Source: an uncultured Sphingomonadales bacterium (GTDB taxonomy: Bacteria > Pseudomonadota > Alphaproteobacteria > Sphingomonadales > Rhodothalassiaceae). Taken from it: a stretch of DNA of 64,000 nt. A model generated the notes under the pieces. The model worked only from the letters and a program-made list of their open reading frames with translations, was not told the origin of the DNA and made no database searches. Positions 3,398 to 16,780 of this stretch are shown here, piece by piece. Position numbers and translations under genes: made by a program. Location: NCBI GenBank assembly GCA_947499155.1, contig CANMND010000002.1:434001-498000 (forward strand), read 5' to 3'. Each line of letters starts with the position of its first letter. The stretch's first letter is position 1.

Positions 3398-4534
3398 TTA
3401 CTCCTGACTGGACACACTGACTGATTCAGAAACTCCAGACTCATCTATCTCACCGTCACGATAATGGGCAAGGCTGGTGCGTAGCAGCACGGCGATTACG
3501 GCTGCTGCCGGGACTGCCACAAGCACACCGACGAACCCTGCCACCTCTCCACCGGCAAAGACCGCAAACAGGACCCATACAGGATGCAGCCCCACTTCTC
3601 GCCCCAAAAGCCGTGGCGTCAAGACGGAAGATTCCAAAATCTGTACAAAAATCCAGACACTGGCCACCAGACCAAGATTGACCATATCCGGTCCCCATTG
3701 GCCATAGCCGACTGCAAGTGCCAAAGCTGCCGCAAACACCATGCCGATAAAGGGAATGATCCCCAAAAGCCCGGCGACAAGTCCCAATATCAATCCGTAA
3801 TCAAGGCCGATCGCGGTCCATCCCACGGCATAAAGGACCGCCATCACGGCCATCACGCACAGTTGCCCCCGCACAAAGCCTGAAAGAACCCGGTCAATAT
3901 CATTGAAAGTCTTGCGAATAAGCGGCGCATGAGCACGGGGCAGCAGGGCGTTTGCCCGCTCTATAATCCGGTCATAGTCTCGCAAAAGATAAAAGGCGAC
4001 CATGGGTGTTATCAGCAAAAGTGTGAGGAAATTGAAGAAGGCAAGGCCACCGGCAAATGCCCGGTTTGCCACAGCCTGAATGCCTTTCAGTCCTTGTTCC
4101 AATGCTGATGATAAAACACCGCGTGCCTGCTGCTCCAGATCAGCGCCCAGTTCTGCACTCAAAGACAGCATTAAAAGATCAAGCCGCTCGCGCACACCAT
4201 CAATTGCGGCTGGCAGGCTTTTGACCAGGCCAATAAGCTGTGCCTGCAACAGGGGCCAGATGGCAAGCATTCCGCCCACCACCAGCAAAAAGAATCCGGC
4301 GATAATCAGGCCCGTCGCAATCCCCCGGCCAATCCCCCATGATTCCAGCCTGTCGGCCAAGGGGTCTGCCAAATAGGCAAGGGCAAAGCCTGCGATGAAC
4401 GGCAGTAAAATTCCCCGGGTGATATAGGCAAACAGCAAGGCCCCGAAAAGAATGAGCCACGGAACCATCCGCACCGCCCATGATCGCGCAGGAGGCGGGC
4501 CGCCCGGGCTGTTATCGTTTATCGCTGTCGCCAT
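3398..4534 (-). CDS. AI-2E family (PerM-like) membrane protein
   Basis: Multi-span inner-membrane protein of 378 residues in the PerM/AI-2E transporter superfamily. A cytoplasmic-type start precedes two hydrophobic segments (about 20-65), then a long amphipathic loop (SLPAAIDGVRERLDLL), then hydrophobic segments to the end, including the conserved-looking region around IIPFIGMVFAAALALAVGY. Substrates differ across the family (quorum signal, Na+/H+, organic anions) and cannot be inferred here. The gene overlaps the end of the DUF2066 gene by 23 bases and is 10 bases from hda, so the three are probably one transcript. Confidence 0.85.
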   Translation of the reverse strand: MATAINDNSPGGPPPARSWAVRMVPWLILFGALLFAYITRGILLPFIAGFALAYLADPLADRLESWGIGRGIATGLIIAGFFLLVVGGMLAIWPLLQAQLIGLVKSLPAAIDGVRERLDLLMLSLSAELGADLEQQARGVLSSALEQGLKGIQAVANRAFAGGLAFFNFLTLLLITPMVAFYLLRDYDRIIERANALLPRAHAPLIRKTFNDIDRVLSGFVRGQLCVMAVMAVLYAVGWTAIGLDYGLILGLVAGLLGIIPFIGMVFAAALALAVGYGQWGPDMVNLGLVASVWIFVQILESSVLTPRLLGREVGLHPVWVLFAVFAGGEVAGFVGVLVAVPAAAVIAVLLRTSLAHYRDGEIDESGVSESVSVSSQE

Positions 4535-5708
4535 CCCCTCGCACCCCCGATGTTTGCTCCGTCACTGGCTGTTCCACAGGACGAAGAACCATGCTGTCTG
4601 CCCCCTGACTCAAGGCAAGGCGCGCTTGTGCCAGTGCAAGCTGCAACTGGGCGTCCGTCCCTATATAATCAATAACAAGCGTAGACAGTGGAATATTGAT
4701 TGCCGTCACCTTTGTATTTCGCACAGTTGAGACGGTTGCAAGCCGATCCCGCACCGCCATCCAGTCCGACAGGCCGCGAACCGGCACCAAAACCGTCATG
4801 CTGTTAAGGTCACTGCCTTCCACCAGCGTGCGGGCTTTCCAGTTATTGTCCGCCTCACGCAGCACCATGTCCGCCGCCCTCACCAGCAAATCATGCGGGT
4901 TTTCATCAGCCATGGCCACAAGACGCCCGGACCGGACTGCGCGTTCTGCAGCGTCTTCCTCATCAAGAAGCGGACCAATCACCACCTCATATTTCAGCGC
5001 CTGCCGGCCAGTGGCAAAATCAAAGGTGCGTACAGCTTTAGCCACCACAACCTTTGCCACCGAAAAAACCCGGGCCACCGGCTCCAGATCATCGGGTGTT
5101 GCATCAGCAAGCGAACTGGGGCTTAGCCAGCGTCGTGAATGCACGGACTCATCAGGAAAGCGATAGGAAATCAGGCGGTTTTTGATATCGGCGTCTTCAA
5201 GAGCCTTGCGCCATTCATGTTCGCCAAACAAGTGATGGGCACCGCCTTCCACCAGAACAGGCAGCAAAAGATAAGGACCCGCCCCTGATTCGGTATAAGA
5301 AACATCAGACTGGGCAAATAACTCGCGCACGCCATCGGCCCAGAATGTGACATCGATATTGGCCAGATAGCGCCGGGCGGACGAGCGTTCATCCCGCACA
5401 TCCACGGCCCGGACGAGGCGTTCCAGAAGCGGCGCACTGGCAGGTGGCAGGCGTCCTGCGCTTTCCACAGACACCAGCTTGTCCGTCAGCTTCACCCAGG
5501 CCCGCGCCTGCGCATCCGCCAAAGCCTGCCTGCGGGCCTCAGTCGCATTGGCCGCCGTCACATCAACAGCAACACCATGAACAGCAAACAACCGGTCACC
5601 ATCCCGATCCGCCGCCGATGCAGGCAAGGCGAACCCCAACATAACCACCGCCCAAAATCCCAACCCAACCAGCACTCTCACGCCCGTTCTCCTTTGGTTC
5701 CCCCGCAC
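4512..5708 (-). CDS. DUF2066 domain-containing exported protein
   Basis: Protein of 398 residues with a clear signal peptide: a basic N-terminus, the hydrophobic stretch VLVGLGFWAVVMLGF, and probable cleavage after ALPASA near residue 32. The mature part begins with the pattern FAVHGVAVDVTAANATEA, typical of the DUF2066 family, whose function is unknown. The tail is rich in Glu, Thr and Asp. It is the first gene of the minus-strand run to AI-2E permease, hda and ppk. This same neighbourhood (purM divergent from DUF2066-permease-hda) recurs in alphaproteobacteria, which supports the call. Confidence 0.85.
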   Translation of the reverse strand: MRGNQRRTGVRVLVGLGFWAVVMLGFALPASAADRDGDRLFAVHGVAVDVTAANATEARRQALADAQARAWVKLTDKLVSVESAGRLPPASAPLLERLVRAVDVRDERSSARRYLANIDVTFWADGVRELFAQSDVSYTESGAGPYLLLPVLVEGGAHHLFGEHEWRKALEDADIKNRLISYRFPDESVHSRRWLSPSSLADATPDDLEPVARVFSVAKVVVAKAVRTFDFATGRQALKYEVVIGPLLDEEDAAERAVRSGRLVAMADENPHDLLVRAADMVLREADNNWKARTLVEGSDLNSMTVLVPVRGLSDWMAVRDRLATVSTVRNTKVTAINIPLSTLVIDYIGTDAQLQLALAQARLALSQGADSMVLRPVEQPVTEQTSGVRGDGDSDKR

Positions 5709-5878
5709 TATAACGAACCAAATCTATATATGAAATGAGACAGGTCTATGAAATTGCCATCGTCACATAAGCTGATGGGCTGGCGTGGGTGAAGTGATAG
5801 TAATTTGAGGCCGCCACATTGTGTGGGGAGACGGATCATAAGCTTTTTTACGCCATTTTTAGCATACGGGTCAGATAC

Positions 5879-6082
5879 TTAGTCCTTAAATATGCTAACT
5901 ATACCTAAACCGATAAATAATACAGACATAGCAGCGGATACAGCCATCATTTCATGCAAATCTGGCATAAAAATAGTAAAAACACATAATGCTAAAAATA
6001 CAACACCAGCTTCGAAATATAATTTCGTGAAATTTAGCTTTCTATTAAATTCTGTGTCACGGACTTTATTAACTTCACCCAT
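5879..6082 (-). CDS. small two-helix membrane protein, candidate bacteriocin immunity protein
   Basis: Protein of 67 residues not matched to a named family. It has a charged N-terminus (about 20 residues) and two hydrophobic segments, roughly 21-38 (FEAGVVFLALCVFTIF) and 46-63 (AVSAAMSVLFIGLGIVSIF), ending in KD. It is probably an inner-membrane hairpin. The start chosen is the ATG at 6082, because GGAG lies six bases before it; the ATG four codons upstream (6094) has no ribosome binding site. It lies directly downstream of the putative bacteriocin gene in the same direction, the usual place and architecture for an immunity protein. That role is inference. The stretch is AT-rich compared with the flanking genes. 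Confidence 0.55.
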   Translation of the reverse strand: MGEVNKVRDTEFNRKLNFTKLYFEAGVVFLALCVFTIFMPDLHEMMAVSAAMSVLFIGLGIVSIFKD

Positions 6083-6103
6083 CTTGATCTCCATGATTAG
6101 ATT

Positions 6104-6133
6104 AAATCAGGAGGTAAAAGTGCCTCCTGATTT
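6104..6133 (-). terminator. perfect 11-bp hairpin between bacteriocin and immunity genes
   Basis: The arms AAATCAGGAGG (6104-6114) and CCTCCTGATTT (6123-6133) are exact complements around an 8-base loop. The hairpin lies just after the bacteriocin stop codon and before the immunity start. On the minus strand it is followed by the AT-rich AATCTAATC rather than a run of T, so it may be a leaky terminator/attenuator or an mRNA-stabilising or processing stem. Confidence 0.6.
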
Positions 6134-6145
6134 CGTATATCGAAT

Positions 6146-6349
6146 CTAATACTCACAAGCTGCCCAAACCCCGGCACCCCCCACGATAGCGCCAGCCACC
6201 ATGCCCCAAGGCCCCAGGATAGAGCCAATCCGCGCTCCCAGAACCGCACCGCTCATACCCATTGCTGCACAATGAGCTGAGCCGCCAGAGACGATTTCTA
6301 TTTCTCCACTTGATAGCTCTCTTACTGTTGTCTCTTTATTTGTGTACAT
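6146..6349 (-). CDS. putative double-glycine-leader bacteriocin (microcin-like) precursor
   Basis: Precursor of 67 residues. The leader ends in ELSSGEIEIVSGG (residues 11-23), matching the double-glycine leader consensus of class II bacteriocins and microcins that are cleaved by peptidase-C39 ABC exporters. The mature part would be residues 24-67, 44 residues, hydrophobic and rich in Gly and Ala. It contains a glycine zipper with Gly at 34, 38, 42 and 46, then 49, 53 and 57. Cys27 and Cys65 lie near its two ends and could form a disulfide. The start ATG has AGGA about nine bases upstream. No exporter is visible in the window, so export would need one encoded elsewhere. Glycine-zipper peptides such as Caulobacter CdzC/CdzD are a possible analogy. 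Confidence 0.65.
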   Translation of the reverse strand: MYTNKETTVRELSSGEIEIVSGGSAHCAAMGMSGAVLGARIGSILGPWGMVAGAIVGGAGVWAACEY

Positions 6350-6886
6350 AATTCCATTTCCTGTGTTTCATATATCATATAAGCGCGCGGCTATAAATAT
6401 TTGCTGCACTTAGCCAGATAGATTCAATCTGACATTGCAAGGCTGCCCCCCCCCGAGATTGCTCGAGTCAAGAGAATTTAATTATTCTAAATTATGTAAA
6501 ATTGTTATAAATTAACCTGTTAGTGGCCCCTAGGGCCCACGCACGCAGGCTCAGGAGCGGGTCGAGGAGCTATTCGATCAGTCAGCATTTTCCAGGATAA
6601 CATTTGAAGAGACAGTCATTCCGGTCTGTAGGGGTATGGACTTTCCATAAGCCTTGATCGCACGTCAGTCGATGTCCACTGTGATAATGGTTACAATTTA
6701 TACATAAATCAGATTACAATATCCTTTTCCTCTTACAGGCTCATAAGTCGCACACAATTTATCCCGCCACCCCCAACAGTAAAAATTCATACCCTGCCCC
6801 CTTGCCTGTAATATAGACTTGCTCTTTGAGGGGCTTTCGATCCATGGTGCGCTCCCATTTTTATATGCGTTTGGGATATTCAGATC
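6350..6886. other. AT-rich intergenic stretch upstream of purM and the bacteriocin gene
   Basis: 537 bases between the divergent bacteriocin gene and purM. It holds a run of nine C at 6446-6454, a very AT-rich block at about 6476-6525, and a short open stretch described separately (6546-6650). Promoters for both divergent units should lie here, but I cannot assign -35/-10 boxes with confidence. No RNA gene is recognisable. Confidence 0.4.
6546..6650 (+). pseudogene. possible remnant of a protein C-terminus, unidentified
   Basis: One frame reads 34 codons and a TAA: QAQERVEELFDQ, then SAFSRITFEETV and IPVCRGMDFP. The composition looks protein-like and hydrophilic, unlike the surrounding AT-rich DNA. 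There is no start codon or ribosome binding site, and a stop lies five codons upstream. It may be the end of a displaced or decayed gene. I do not recognise a family, and it could be chance. Confidence 0.2.
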
Positions 6887-8011
6887 GTGAGTGATGAACG
6901 ACCAGTTTCCGAGAAGCCCGTCTCATACAGCTATGCAGATGCGGGCGTAGATATTGCAGCCGGTGAAGCGCTGGTGGATGCGATCAAGCCTGCTGCTGCG
7001 TCCACGCGGCGGCCCGGTGCCGATGCGGCTCTTGGCGGCTTTGGTGCCCTGTTTGACCTGAAAGCTGCGGGATACACGGATCCCCTGCTTGTTGCAGGAA
7101 CCGATGGTGTGGGCACCAAGCTTAAAATAGCATTTGAGACCGGCCACCATGAAACGGTCGGGATCGATCTTGTGGCCATGTGCGCCAATGATGTGCTGGT
7201 CCAGGGTGCAGAGCCTCTCTTTTTCCTCGATTATTTCGCAACGGGGCGGCTTGCGACCGATGTTGCAACCTCAGTGGTCAAGGGCGTGGCCGAAGGGTGC
7301 CGGCAGGCAGGCTGCGCGCTGATCGGTGGCGAGACGGCTGAAATGCCCGGCATGTATGGTCGCGGTGAATATGACCTGGCAGGCTTTGTCGTTGGCGCAG
7401 TCGAGCGCGACCAATTAATAACCGGCGATACCATCAAGCCCGGCGACCGCATTATCGGGCTTGCCTCATCCGGCCTTCATTCCAACGGCTTTTCACTGGT
7501 GCGGAAGCTGATAGCCGATATGGAACTGCGCTTTAACAGCCCTGCCCCCTTTGACAGCCGCACGACACTTGGTGATACCCTGCTCATTCCCACAAAGCTT
7601 TATATCAAAAGCTGCCTGCCCCTTGCCCGCAAGGGCCTGGTAAAGGGCATGGCCCATATCACCGGTGGCGGCCTGCTTGAAAATATCCCGCGCTGCCTTC
7701 CAGATGGCACATCTGCTTTGATTGATGCTTCGACCTGGACATTGCCCCCAGTCTTTTCCTGGCTTCAGGAAGCTGGCCGGATCATTCCTGCCGAACTTGC
7801 ACGCACCTTCAACTGTGGCATAGGAATGATTCTTGTCATTGACGAAAAAGATGCAGATGCAGTTATATCTCATCTCAACAACACGGGCGAAGTCGCGACC
7901 GAAATCGGTGTCGTCACAAAAGGCGAAGGCAAAGCCCGCACCGTGATCGAAGGAGCGCCCGGCTTATGGGGCGCACGTGACGGGTTTAACGCACAATCAG
8001 GCGAGGAGTGA
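6887..8011 (+). CDS. purM: phosphoribosylformylglycinamidine cyclo-ligase (AIR synthetase)
   Basis: Converts FGAM and ATP to aminoimidazole ribotide, step five of purine synthesis, in the cytoplasm. 374 residues. Family signatures are [13 protein letters not shown] near residue 14, [22 protein letters not shown] (nucleotide-binding), [25 protein letters not shown] and [10 protein letters not shown]. The start is GTG at 6887, preceded by a weak GGGA. The stop lies within the ribosome binding region of purN, which begins four bases later, so the two are co-translated. It is divergent from the bacteriocin locus. Confidence 0.97.
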
Positions 8012-13876: not shown

Positions 13877-16780
13877 CTAAAGCGCACCACCTGCAGCTAC
13901 TGAGGAGTCTGCTGATTTGAACTCAGCCCGATAGGCGGACAGGAATGAGCGGAACCGGTCCACCCCACCCAGAGAACCGGCAATCCGGCTGAGTTCGCCT
14001 TCAGGGGTCCCGTCAGGGCTGGTTAGAAGGTCGAAAATCCCGGCATAATCCCCTGTACTGATCAAGGGCAGGTAGCGCTCTCGCAAAAGACCAAGATTTT
14101 GGCGATCATCCATAAATGAAAGGGCGAGCGCATTACGTATCAAGATTTCACGCTCCTTGAGGCCCAACACCTCGTCAAACTTGTACCGTTCTCCCAGCAT
14201 ATTCTGTGTAACACGAGCGAGCGCTGGCCAATCCGTATTTGCCCAGTAAATATCAGCTCGGAGCTGATCCGCCTCATGGCTGTGAATATCTTCTAGCGAG
14301 ACGGACGCTTCTTCATAGCGCTTCAATTCCGTCAGTGCTCGGGCTGTTACCAGTATCCTGTCTTCAGTCACATCCTCAGGCAACACGGTTTGTCGGGTTG
14401 CCCGCATGATTTGCAAAGCTTTCTCGGGCTTGCCATCCAGAAGATATATTTTGCCAAGCTTTGACGCCACCGACGCCTGCGCGGCCCCTTCCAAACGGAA
14501 ACTGACCTGATGCTCCAGAAGATCAGCAGCCCGATCCAGCAGATCTACTGATACCAATCGATCCACAAGATTGCGGATCATCCGGTCGCCCTCAGACCCC
14601 AGAGGTGTCAGTTCATTAAAATCATAAAAGAGGCCCAAAGCTTCAAGCGGTGAAAACGCAAGAGAGCCTCCATCCAGGAACAGACCAGAGAATATTTTTG
14701 ACATATGCGCCGCAATAGAACGGGAACGCGAGGTATCGGGAAAGGCCATGGCCGCAAACTGCAAGGCTTCCAGTGCCTGGCGATGGTGCCCGTTTTCTTC
14801 ATAATAGCCGGCCAAAGTCTCAAGAATATCCAGTTCCAGTTCGTCCCCACGCCAGGCAAAGCGCAATCTTTCCAGACGTTCAATAGCTTCTTTCACTGAC
14901 AAAGCACCTTCACGCTTCTCCAGCCTGATCAGTGCGTAACGGGCCCGGGTCGACAATGCCCGGTCAAATGCGCTTGCCGCATCCTGATAGCGTGCCCTTG
15001 CGGTGGCAAAATCACCCTGAATATCGGCCAGACGCCCGGTCAAATAATCCGAAACAAGTGCCTCAGTGCCTTCCAGTCCCATATTCTGAAGAATACCGAC
15101 ATGGTCTGACGCAAGATCAAGGGCATCAATTGCAAGGGCCGCTTCAGCCATGGCAATATGAAGGCGTGCCAGAAAGGGGCGTTCGTGCAGAACAATGGCT
15201 TCCTTGCCCCGATTGTACCATATCAGTGCGTCGGACATGCGTCCACTGTGGCGAGCCGCTAACGCACGCCATAGCCAGATATCCGATTCCGCATCGAGAT
15301 CCGGGGCCATCAGGGATGTAAGGGCTTCTGCAGGGCGGTTTAGCCCAAGGAGTGCAAGACCATTAACCGCACGCCATTCAGGAGTATCAACAATTTCCGG
15401 GTCTGTATTGGCCAGTAAAGTCAGCATGGCCAGAGATTCTGCTGCGGCGCCATGGCCAATATAAAAGCGCGCAAGGTCCCAACGTATGGCCTTTCTGTCG
15501 GTGGGCCCGGCAAGTGAAAGTGCCACCAGCATCGACTGTTCCTGATCGGTATAACTGTCCTTGTCGCCCAGTTTCCAAGACTTGGGGTCCAGCAACCGCT
15601 TAGGCATACCGTCTCCAGAGGAATCCAGAAATCGCTTGCCAAGTTGCGGACCACTTAAAGCAAGTCCGCTTTTAGTACCCAGACTAAGACCCTCGGCAAA
15701 GCGCACAATTTCAATATCATCGGAGAGAGGCCTGATCACCAGGCCCTGCGCACTTCGCAACAGCTCCATATTCACGAGTTGCCGTGCTTCAGCCAGTCCG
15801 CGACCGCTTCCACCAAGGGGGATAATCAATAGCTCGTCGCCCACATCAGGATCAGTAACGCGAATGCGCGCGCCAATAGTGCGATCGGCCACGAAAATCA
15901 CCGGACCTTGCTGACGCTCTTGCCTTTCAAGAACGAGCCCCGCTCGCGGGATGACTTCATTTTGTGAAAGCCTGATACGCCATACCGGACCAGATCGGGT
16001 CATGCCGACGCCAGGAGAGCCTCTTAACCGGAATCGCACTATGCTGTGTCCCGGTTCATGCATTGCCTCAACCGCATGAACGGCTCCACTCTGGCCTGCC
16101 ATAATGGCATGACGGATAGCATCAAGATCAAGTGCGTCCTGGCTATCAAACACCACCCACAACCAGTCCCCTCGCAAGAAGGCGGCGACTGCGGTGTCCT
16201 CCCACCAGCCGAATGCAATGTCCAGTGAAGGGCCATCCCATTTCAGAGAAACAGGGATTGCACGATTTTTGGGTGGTTCTGAATTGACAGATGTAACGGC
16301 TGATTCTGCAGGGGGCGTTATGGCTGCTTTGGATGAAGTAGTATGTGTCTGTTCCGTCTCGACCTGTGTCGTGGCTAGAGGTTGAGCGTCCGATTCAGTC
16401 ATTACATCAAGCACGACACTCTGTCCGCTCATAAAATGACGAAGCGTAGCGCCAGGGGGAATTTGAAACAGTAACAATGTGCCCTGCTCAATACTGCCCA
16501 CCACTGGCTGGGAGATGCGTTGAAGTGGGTCTTGTTCCAGTACCGACAGGTCGATGTTATGTGCCACTGGAAAATGAACCTCCAGTGTGTCTTCCTTTAT
16601 TGCAGCTTCATAAGAAGGCATGGTTTCAAAATCGAAAACCATGCGGCTGAACGTGTCATGTTCACCGATACGCAGAACCACATCATCGGCTGCAACTGCC
16701 ACATTTGCAGTCACCAGTCCCGCTACCATTTGGCCTAAAATCAGTAATACTCTCAATAATTTCATAGACTTAACGGGCAT
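13877..16780 (-). CDS. large exported AMIN-like/TPR-repeat protein in the flagellar operon
   Basis: Protein of 967 residues with a signal peptide (LLRVLLILGQMVAGLVTANVAVA), so the mature protein is periplasmic. The N-terminal 100 residues (HDTFSRMVFDFE and following) resemble an AMIN-type domain. A Ser/Thr/Glu-rich linker follows at about 130-170, and a second beta-rich region to about 370. From about residue 400 onward it is helical, with repeated A/L-rich pairs typical of tetratricopeptide repeats. Its start overlaps the end of the MotB-like gene by 11 bases and has GGAG seven bases upstream. This ties it to the flagellar/stator operon. It is not a protein I can name; a periplasmic scaffold for the MotB-like pair is inference. 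Confidence 0.7.
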   Translation of the reverse strand: MPVKSMKLLRVLLILGQMVAGLVTANVAVAADDVVLRIGEHDTFSRMVFDFETMPSYEAAIKEDTLEVHFPVAHNIDLSVLEQDPLQRISQPVVGSIEQGTLLLFQIPPGATLRHFMSGQSVVLDVMTESDAQPLATTQVETEQTHTTSSKAAITPPAESAVTSVNSEPPKNRAIPVSLKWDGPSLDIAFGWWEDTAVAAFLRGDWLWVVFDSQDALDLDAIRHAIMAGQSGAVHAVEAMHEPGHSIVRFRLRGSPGVGMTRSGPVWRIRLSQNEVIPRAGLVLERQERQQGPVIFVADRTIGARIRVTDPDVGDELLIIPLGGSGRGLAEARQLVNMELLRSAQGLVIRPLSDDIEIVRFAEGLSLGTKSGLALSGPQLGKRFLDSSGDGMPKRLLDPKSWKLGDKDSYTDQEQSMLVALSLAGPTDRKAIRWDLARFYIGHGAAAESLAMLTLLANTDPEIVDTPEWRAVNGLALLGLNRPAEALTSLMAPDLDAESDIWLWRALAARHSGRMSDALIWYNRGKEAIVLHERPFLARLHIAMAEAALAIDALDLASDHVGILQNMGLEGTEALVSDYLTGRLADIQGDFATARARYQDAASAFDRALSTRARYALIRLEKREGALSVKEAIERLERLRFAWRGDELELDILETLAGYYEENGHHRQALEALQFAAMAFPDTSRSRSIAAHMSKIFSGLFLDGGSLAFSPLEALGLFYDFNELTPLGSEGDRMIRNLVDRLVSVDLLDRAADLLEHQVSFRLEGAAQASVASKLGKIYLLDGKPEKALQIMRATRQTVLPEDVTEDRILVTARALTELKRYEEASVSLEDIHSHEADQLRADIYWANTDWPALARVTQNMLGERYKFDEVLGLKEREILIRNALALSFMDDRQNLGLLRERYLPLISTGDYAGIFDLLTSPDGTPEGELSRIAGSLGGVDRFRSFLSAYRAEFKSADSSVAAGGAL

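Follow-up and report, generated by a model that had tools for sequence, protein, structure and literature searches.

The window (the whole 64,000-nt stretch of DNA that was analysed) carries, in an enlarged intergenic gap, two small open reading frames (ORFs) on the minus strand: a peptide precursor with a double-glycine leader and, after it, a small membrane protein. The gap and its contents are laid out as follows.

5709-6886, no strand: enlarged intergenic gap between a 398-aa gene (4512-5708, minus) and purM (6887-8011, plus)
5879-6082, minus: small membrane protein of 67 aa, putative immunity protein; hydrophobic stretches at residues 16-34 and 47-65, GGAG before the ATG
6104-6133, minus: hairpin between precursor and partner gene; 11-bp stem, 8-nt loop, no clear T run
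6146-6349, minus: double-glycine precursor of 67 aa; leader (residues 1-23) at 6281-6349, mature peptide (residues 24-67) at 6149-6280

The gap interrupts a conserved gene order: an AI2E-like gene, the 398-aa gene (which we take to be DUF2066-like), and the plus-strand gene at 6887-8011 (which we presume to be purM) follow one another in five relatives as well (G001, G002, G003, G004, and G005). Between ORF ends, the gap measures 1178 bp in the window, versus 171 to 336 bp in these relatives, measured there from one tblastn alignment end to the next, and roughly 0.9 kb is inserted between the 398-aa gene and purM. Its GC content is 42.8%, versus 52.3% for the window, with the precursor at 54% and the partner at 32%. 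The precursor was found in none of the 98 other genomes in which it was sought and the partner in none of 59; thus, of the genomes searched, only this one carries the pair, as an insertion. No similar DNA was found in phage records, and a search for the precursor pattern in named genome contigs, a set from which the own genome is perhaps absent, returned 410 stretches, none of which was confirmed.

Translation bears out the sequence-only reading, which had described a 67-aa precursor with a 44-aa mature part and had listed its Gly and Cys positions; both ORFs lie on the minus strand. At the end of the leader (RELSSGEIEIVSGG), Leu at -12, Glu at -8, Ile at -7, Val at -4, and GG occupy every position of the double-glycine consensus (L-12, E-8, hydrophobic residues at -7 and -4, and GG or GA). 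The mature part begins at Ser24 and contains two GxxxG series (Gly 34/38/42/46 and Gly 49/53/57), further Gly residues at 31, 58, and 60, and Cys at 27 and 65. Helices are predicted at residues 23-45 and 47-66 (single-sequence model, pLDDT 75, pTM 0.41); in such a model, both Cys residues would share one end of the helical hairpin, making a Cys27-Cys65 disulfide possible. When the precursor was compared with bacteriocin profiles, as the sequence-only reading had proposed, Pfam PF10439 (Bacteriocin_IIc) did match it (E = 1.2e-4), but at 22.5 bits against a curated cut-off of 27.1 bits; because the score lies under the cut-off, we term the precursor bacteriocin-like.

The same-strand protein said to follow the precursor is likewise present, with two hydrophobic stretches and two predicted helices (single-sequence model, pLDDT 78, pTM 0.43). 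It has 71 aa if read from its first ATG (6094) and 67 aa if read from the ATG at 6082, which has GGAG 6 nt before it. Pfam offers no match to this partner, and NCBIfam offers three weak ones, far under their cut-offs. The hairpin separating the two genes (minimum free energy of -22.2 kcal/mol over 83 nt, z = -2.29, with 4 of 200 shuffles folding equally well) is attenuator- or stabiliser-like.

Exporter and sister precursors on contig C3

The exporter, which had been expected elsewhere in the genome, is indeed encoded there: contig C3 holds a C39-ABC protein (749 aa, at C3:169678) and an HlyD protein (474 aa), ~7 kb apart in the same orientation, with profile matches to Peptidase_C39 (1e-33) and HlyD_3 (1.6e-17), beside four precursors of the same leader type. 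By reading, the N-terminal domain of the C39-ABC protein contains QSEAAECG, a later His in HWDMNHFVVL, and an Asp in IHDPA, whose Cys, His, and Asp we take to be the C39 catalytic pattern; the genome therefore contains both a C39-ABC protein with these residues and an HlyD partner. Three C39 matches occur in the genome (on contigs C3, C5, and C1), and the C3 protein is the only ABC exporter among them whose Cys/His/Asp pattern looks intact. Its best solved relatives are ABC-type bacteriocin transporters (e.g., 8vp3 and 4ry2).

Two other candidates were set aside. The C39 transporter on C5 lacks the catalytic Cys by reading, and a leader scan of the surrounding 19 kb turned up nothing but two implausible ORFs, while the C39 protein on C1 occupies a frame of 259 aa, which leaves no space for an ABC part. 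A stand-alone C39 peptidase on C1 (L006:5279-9492; G000:C1) sits next to proteins that look secreted, several of which have GG motifs, and to a possible outer-membrane protein, a neighbourhood resembling functional-amyloid (Fap-like) operons. A few kb from the exporter cluster are prophage-like genes (L004:27-2370; G000:C3), which we take to be terminase-small-subunit-like and repressor-like.

Between the C3 exporter and HlyD lie four precursors, three with leaders of the form RELT.LEI[ED][FY]VSG[GA] and the fourth with RDLYATEYSFINGG. Each has after it a protein of 59 to 171 aa that contains two or four hydrophobic stretches. The leader form R[ED]L...E[IY]..[VI].G[GA] is common to these four and the window precursor. 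A profile built from the five recovers them in the own genome along with a sixth at C1:523055 (E 4.1e-4); its further listed match (E 1.1) is inside an 837-aa frame. Precursors in the own genome thus number six: the window copy, the four of the C3 cluster, and this satellite on C1. A PF10439 match at C3:243133 sits inside a 584-aa frame and was judged to be chance. The C1 satellite (L156:6008-6572; G000:C1, about 523.0-523.6 kb) encodes a 96-aa precursor, LTANEIDFVSGA, and then an 85-aa ORF with two hydrophobic stretches; it is preceded by a promoter-like TTGACG-N16-TAATAT and has neither a G tract nor the upstream block shared by the window and the cluster. The latter comprises two features:

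6344-6682, minus: upstream homologous block; the closest copy, upstream of a C3 cluster precursor, is 77% identical over 341 bp
6526-6682, minus: remnant of the hlyD 3' end; 72% DNA identity, with stops and a frameshift

Compared with the upstream DNA of three cluster precursors, the window block is 77, 82, and 76% identical (best E = 8.8e-69), and this match, together with the leader type common to the precursors of the same genome, makes the likeness more than chance. At E 0.01, the block matches six places in the own genome: the window itself and five in the C3 cluster, namely, the upstream regions of three precursors, a short copy toward the exporter side, and the hlyD gene's own 3' end. 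A stop-free copy of the hlyD tail precedes the cluster precursor at 15964-16284. Neither the window's mature part nor the partner showed DNA similarity to the cluster, so these parts have either diverged or been replaced.

From these sequences, the window pair looks like a relocated cassette of the C3 cluster, hlyD scar included, and, most simply, cassettes made up of hlyD tail, promoter, precursor, and partner would have undergone duplication inside the cluster, and one of them would have moved to contig C2. The pair had been called an orphan, which is apt insofar as it is unlinked from its exporter but misses that, judged by the shared upstream DNA and the hlyD-tail remnant, it seems to be a relocated member of the cluster. 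We assign the C3 exporter to the window pair because four precursors with the same leader adjoin it and because the window shares their upstream DNA and carries the hlyD-tail remnant. Also on C3, a 169-bp block occurs twice (L004:11479-11645 and L004:13853-14021, 94% identity): the first copy precedes small membrane genes upstream of the exporter, with no G tract after it, and the second precedes a precursor.

Within the family, the exporter is present in the own genome, in G004 (68% identity), and in G006 (71%), with six, four, and two precursor-profile matches, respectively; in G001 and G002 (same genus), G003, and G005 (64% complete), we found neither a close exporter nor a profile match. 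Across 60 genomes, profile matches at E 0.01 occur in 9 of the 13 whose exporter has at least 39% identity versus 2 of the 47 others, although the profile was built from sequences of the own genome, G004, and G006, making the independent count 6 of 10 versus 2 of 47. The matches in those two (G009 and G056) are in 309- and 293-aa frames and look spurious, and 4 of the 11 positive genomes (G009, G027, G031, and G056) are positive at only E 0.003-0.01, with G027 and G031 at E 0.009-0.01. Partnering is widespread in the three family members: 11 of 14 precursors are followed by a same-strand protein (59-206 aa, two to five hydrophobic stretches), the exceptions being two satellites in G004 and one precursor in G006. 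On contig C276 of G006 (L201), a double-glycine precursor, RPLSTEELDHVHGG, stands in 2455 bp that contain no G run of 7 or more, and no membrane-protein ORF was found after it on its strand.

Poly-G element upstream of the precursors

Within the upstream block, three features lie in close succession:

6413-6433, minus: stem-loop downstream of the tract; 7-bp stem, 7-nt loop; 2 of 300 mononucleotide shuffles of 46 nt fold equally
6446-6454, minus: poly-G tract of 9 G (C9 on the plus strand), the longest G/C run of the window
6466-6471, minus: -35-like hexamer TTGACT; 11 nt separate it from the G tract, and 20 nt lie between it and the tract end

No other G/C run in the 64 kb reaches a length of 8. 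Mononucleotide shuffling of the window sequence gives an expectation of 2.05 runs this long versus the 1 observed, so a lone tract is meaningless, and the argument is instead its position before sister precursors and those of relatives. Four of the six precursors in the own genome have the element: a TTGAC-like hexamer (TTGGCA in one), 9 to 13 nt, and then a G run, located 95-98 nt before the start codon and numbering 9 G in the window and 11, 8, and 6 (interrupted, GGAGGGGGG) in the cluster. The block copy near the exporter has GAAAGGAG in place of the G run. Two further stretches of the own genome (L005 and L006) contain one run of 8 each, with no known link to a precursor. Over three genomes of two genera, the tract precedes 11 of the 14 precursors listed (own genome, 6; G004, 6; G006, 2) and is missing from the own cluster precursor 15641, the C1 satellite, and one G006 precursor (contig C276).

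We searched 40 genomes for the strict pattern TTGAC-N7..14-G8, with the backward pattern as a control. The strict pattern gave 10 distinct sites in four genomes (own genome, 2; G004, 6; G006, 1; G003, 1), and all nine sites in the exporter-bearing family members (own genome, G004, and G006) precede ORFs with double-glycine leaders; after the G003 site, no double-glycine precursor ORF was found. The control gave six matches in 5 of the 40 genomes, G006 among them. In G004, whose assembly consists of two contigs, three sites fall in the exporter cluster and three are satellites. As a general feature of exporter-linked loci, poly-G was rejected: 96 such loci (1.78 Mb, some genomes represented twice) held seven runs of 8 or more, three of which are the G004 cluster promoters, and a tract lay within 300 nt upstream of 1 of 46 precursor candidates (in G004), the candidate expression having missed two G004 cluster precursors.

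Two G004 loci have contents of their own. At L184:3261-4810, the element is followed by a double-glycine peptide of 83 aa that contains two CC pairs, and then by a protein of 377 aa whose ATP-grasp similarity stays under the cut-off; judging from these sequences, the peptide is possibly a modified (graspetide-like) one served by the same system. At L185:2693-3163, the element precedes a Gly-rich peptide of 90 aa that contains two Cys and has the leader RELDEKELPFVFGG, and the next ORF (309 aa) has one hydrophobic stretch.

In 10 of 11 promoters, 19-23 nt separate the hexamer from the tract end, more than the usual sigma-70 spacing. Directly after the tract, a TA-starting hexamer occurs in 9 of the 11 (a set chosen for having hexamer and tract), with none in the window copy or in 13747. 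Stem-loops of differing sequence occupy the same place in most sister promoters, with stems that are TCAGAT/ATCTGA-like in the own genome, CCGGTG/CACCGG in four G004 promoters and in G006, and CCGGCG/CGCCGG in a fifth G004 promoter; in mononucleotide shuffles, at most 4 of 300 fold equally for 8 of the 11 and 16, 27, and 35 for the other three (note that three of the 11 are near-identical). From its layout, the TTGAC-N-poly(G) element is probably a promoter with slippage-tuned spacing for most cassettes.

Tract length differs between otherwise near-identical copies. Two G004 promoters with 11 and 14 G have flanks that are identical at 60 of 60 positions upstream and 224 of 226 aligned positions downstream (99% outside the tract), such that, in this one promoter pair, tract length is more variable than the flanks. 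A third G004 cluster promoter, with 13 G, is identical to them at 42 of 60 positions upstream and at 223 of 227 or 221 of 226 downstream. Phase variation is the natural reading of such length differences. Homopolymeric tracts in promoter spacers are familiar from Neisseria porA and Bordetella fim. Precedents come from two further systems. In HPT_37 of Propionibacterium acnes, a C/G run is placed between -10 and -35, and the presence of 5 or 7 C is offered as a cause of an expression difference; in the available text, this run is not before a bacteriocin gene, whereas here the element precedes most members of a peptide family (PMC4746626). The nap island of Neisseria gonorrhoeae encodes double-glycine bacteriocin-like peptides and a putative immunity gene and has homopolymeric tracts that its authors consider likely phase variable; there, poly-G in napR and poly-T in napC are inside ORFs, whereas here the tract is upstream of the cassettes, after a -35-like hexamer (PMC11798529). 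Within the literature searched, as available to us, this island, with its tracts inside ORFs, was the only place for which phase-variable bacteriocin-like peptides were described.

Alternatively, the G tracts could be fixed features (e.g., a binding site or a structural element), with length differences that reflect assembly noise or slow drift, an explanation to which we give real weight while leaning away from it. It would have to accommodate both the recurrence of the tract in the same place before most precursors of three genomes in two genera and the 99%-alike promoters with 11 and 14 G in the two-contig genome of G004. In its favour, homopolymer lengths are error-prone and all tract-length comparisons draw on one assembly per species, one cluster copy is interrupted, and the variation of G/C tracts in P. 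acnes tracked phylogenetic clades in the available part of that study, suggesting slow accumulation (PMC4746626).

A proposed toxin-immunity cassette and its alternatives

We consider it likely, from the sequences, that the window pair is a toxin-immunity cassette relocated out of a class II double-glycine bacteriocin-like cluster, exported by the C3 machine and tuned by a poly-G promoter. Starting from what the sequence shows, namely the exporter genes, the common leader, the common upstream DNA with its hlyD scar, and a tract whose length differs from copy to copy, we infer export, killing, immunity, promoter identity, and switching along the following lines. Transcription would begin at the promoter with the poly-G tract after its -35-like hexamer, and replication slippage would shift the spacing, tuning or switching the window cassette independently of the others. 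The leader would be recognised and the precursor cut after Gly23 and exported by the C3 C39-ABC/HlyD machine, with a putative housekeeping TolC completing the route. The 44-residue Gly-zipper helical hairpin, perhaps with its disulfide, would then enter the inner membrane of sensitive neighbours, and the two-helix partner would shield the producer.

As anatomy, the combination of a double-glycine bacteriocin-like peptide, a probable immunity protein, and a distant C39 exporter is well supported by sequence. The window pair resembles class II double-glycine bacteriocins and microcins (PF10439 and PF17508) in its L-12/E-8/I-7/V-4/GG leader, in having C39-ABC and HlyD proteins in the genome, and in its small Gly-rich mature peptide with an adjacent small membrane protein; it differs in scoring under the Pfam cut-off, in being unlinked from its exporter, and in its poly-G upstream block and hlyD-tail scar. 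What looks new here is the relocated cassette with a scar of its origin, its being one of six precursors, and the poly-G on four of them.

Within this class, the closest functional analogue known to us is CdzC/CdzD of Caulobacter crescentus, described as GxxxG-rich small proteins with ABC/HlyD-type export, a small membrane immunity protein (CdzI), and, in the available text, no TolC gene in the cluster (PMC5380434). These traits recur here, where an extended GxxxG zipper is accompanied by an ABC/HlyD-type exporter, no TolC gene in the cluster, and a small membrane immunity-like protein. CDZ is, however, a two-protein toxin, as described in the same text, whereas here there is one precursor per cassette, although with six precursors in the genome some may yet act together, and the cassettes are dispersed, unlike those of CDZ. 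Small and hydrophobic residues (G, A, V, and I) make up 75% of CdzC/D versus 61% (27 of 44) of the window mature peptide, and CdzI has three predicted hydrophobic stretches versus two in the window partner (PMC5380434). The likeness is a general one (GxxxG and ABC/HlyD export) rather than a claim of homology.

It is unlikely that the pair is instead a product of the same double-glycine system without toxicity to neighbours, i.e., a peptide for signalling, biofilm, or self-lysis with the membrane protein as its receptor or accessory. Several mature parts are divergent and most come with their own differing membrane protein, which is the usual pattern of bacteriocin-immunity diversification, and Gly-zipper mature parts suit membrane insertion; both points argue against a nontoxic role. 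Such roles are nevertheless on record: double-glycine small proteins of Synechococcus act in biofilm development (PMC4997328), and in N. gonorrhoeae no antimicrobial activity was detected for the Nap peptides, which instead promote lysis of the cells that make them (PMC11798529). That the relocated window copy is a decaying remnant, no longer expressed or exported, seems quite improbable, since both ORFs are open, every canonical leader position is kept, purine-rich ribosome-binding sites are present, and the upstream block retains its tract and stem-loop, even though the hlyD tail beside the pair is broken, the block is 23% diverged from its nearest copy, the 20-nt distance comes with no clear -10 element, and the pair was not found in the relatives searched (0/98 for the precursor, 0/59 for the partner).

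If the window pair is such a toxin-immunity cassette, and if promoter slippage turns toxin and immunity on and off jointly, "on" cells may kill their "off" siblings, and fratricide, bet hedging, and kin recognition become directly testable questions. More tentatively, and with somewhat more doubt than confidence, we suggest that one exporter serves a dispersed toxin-immunity repertoire whose members mostly have their own poly-G switches, such that clonal siblings stochastically hold different subsets of toxins and immunities, as in an arsenal governed by contingency loci; this repertoire would include the satellites and the G004 Cys-bearing peptide with its ATP-grasp-like enzyme. The locus also illustrates a possible origin of an orphan bacteriocin gene, as a cassette copied out of an exporter cluster, scar included. 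In this family, TTGAC-N-poly(G) has served as a DNA signature by which double-glycine peptides far from the exporter were found.
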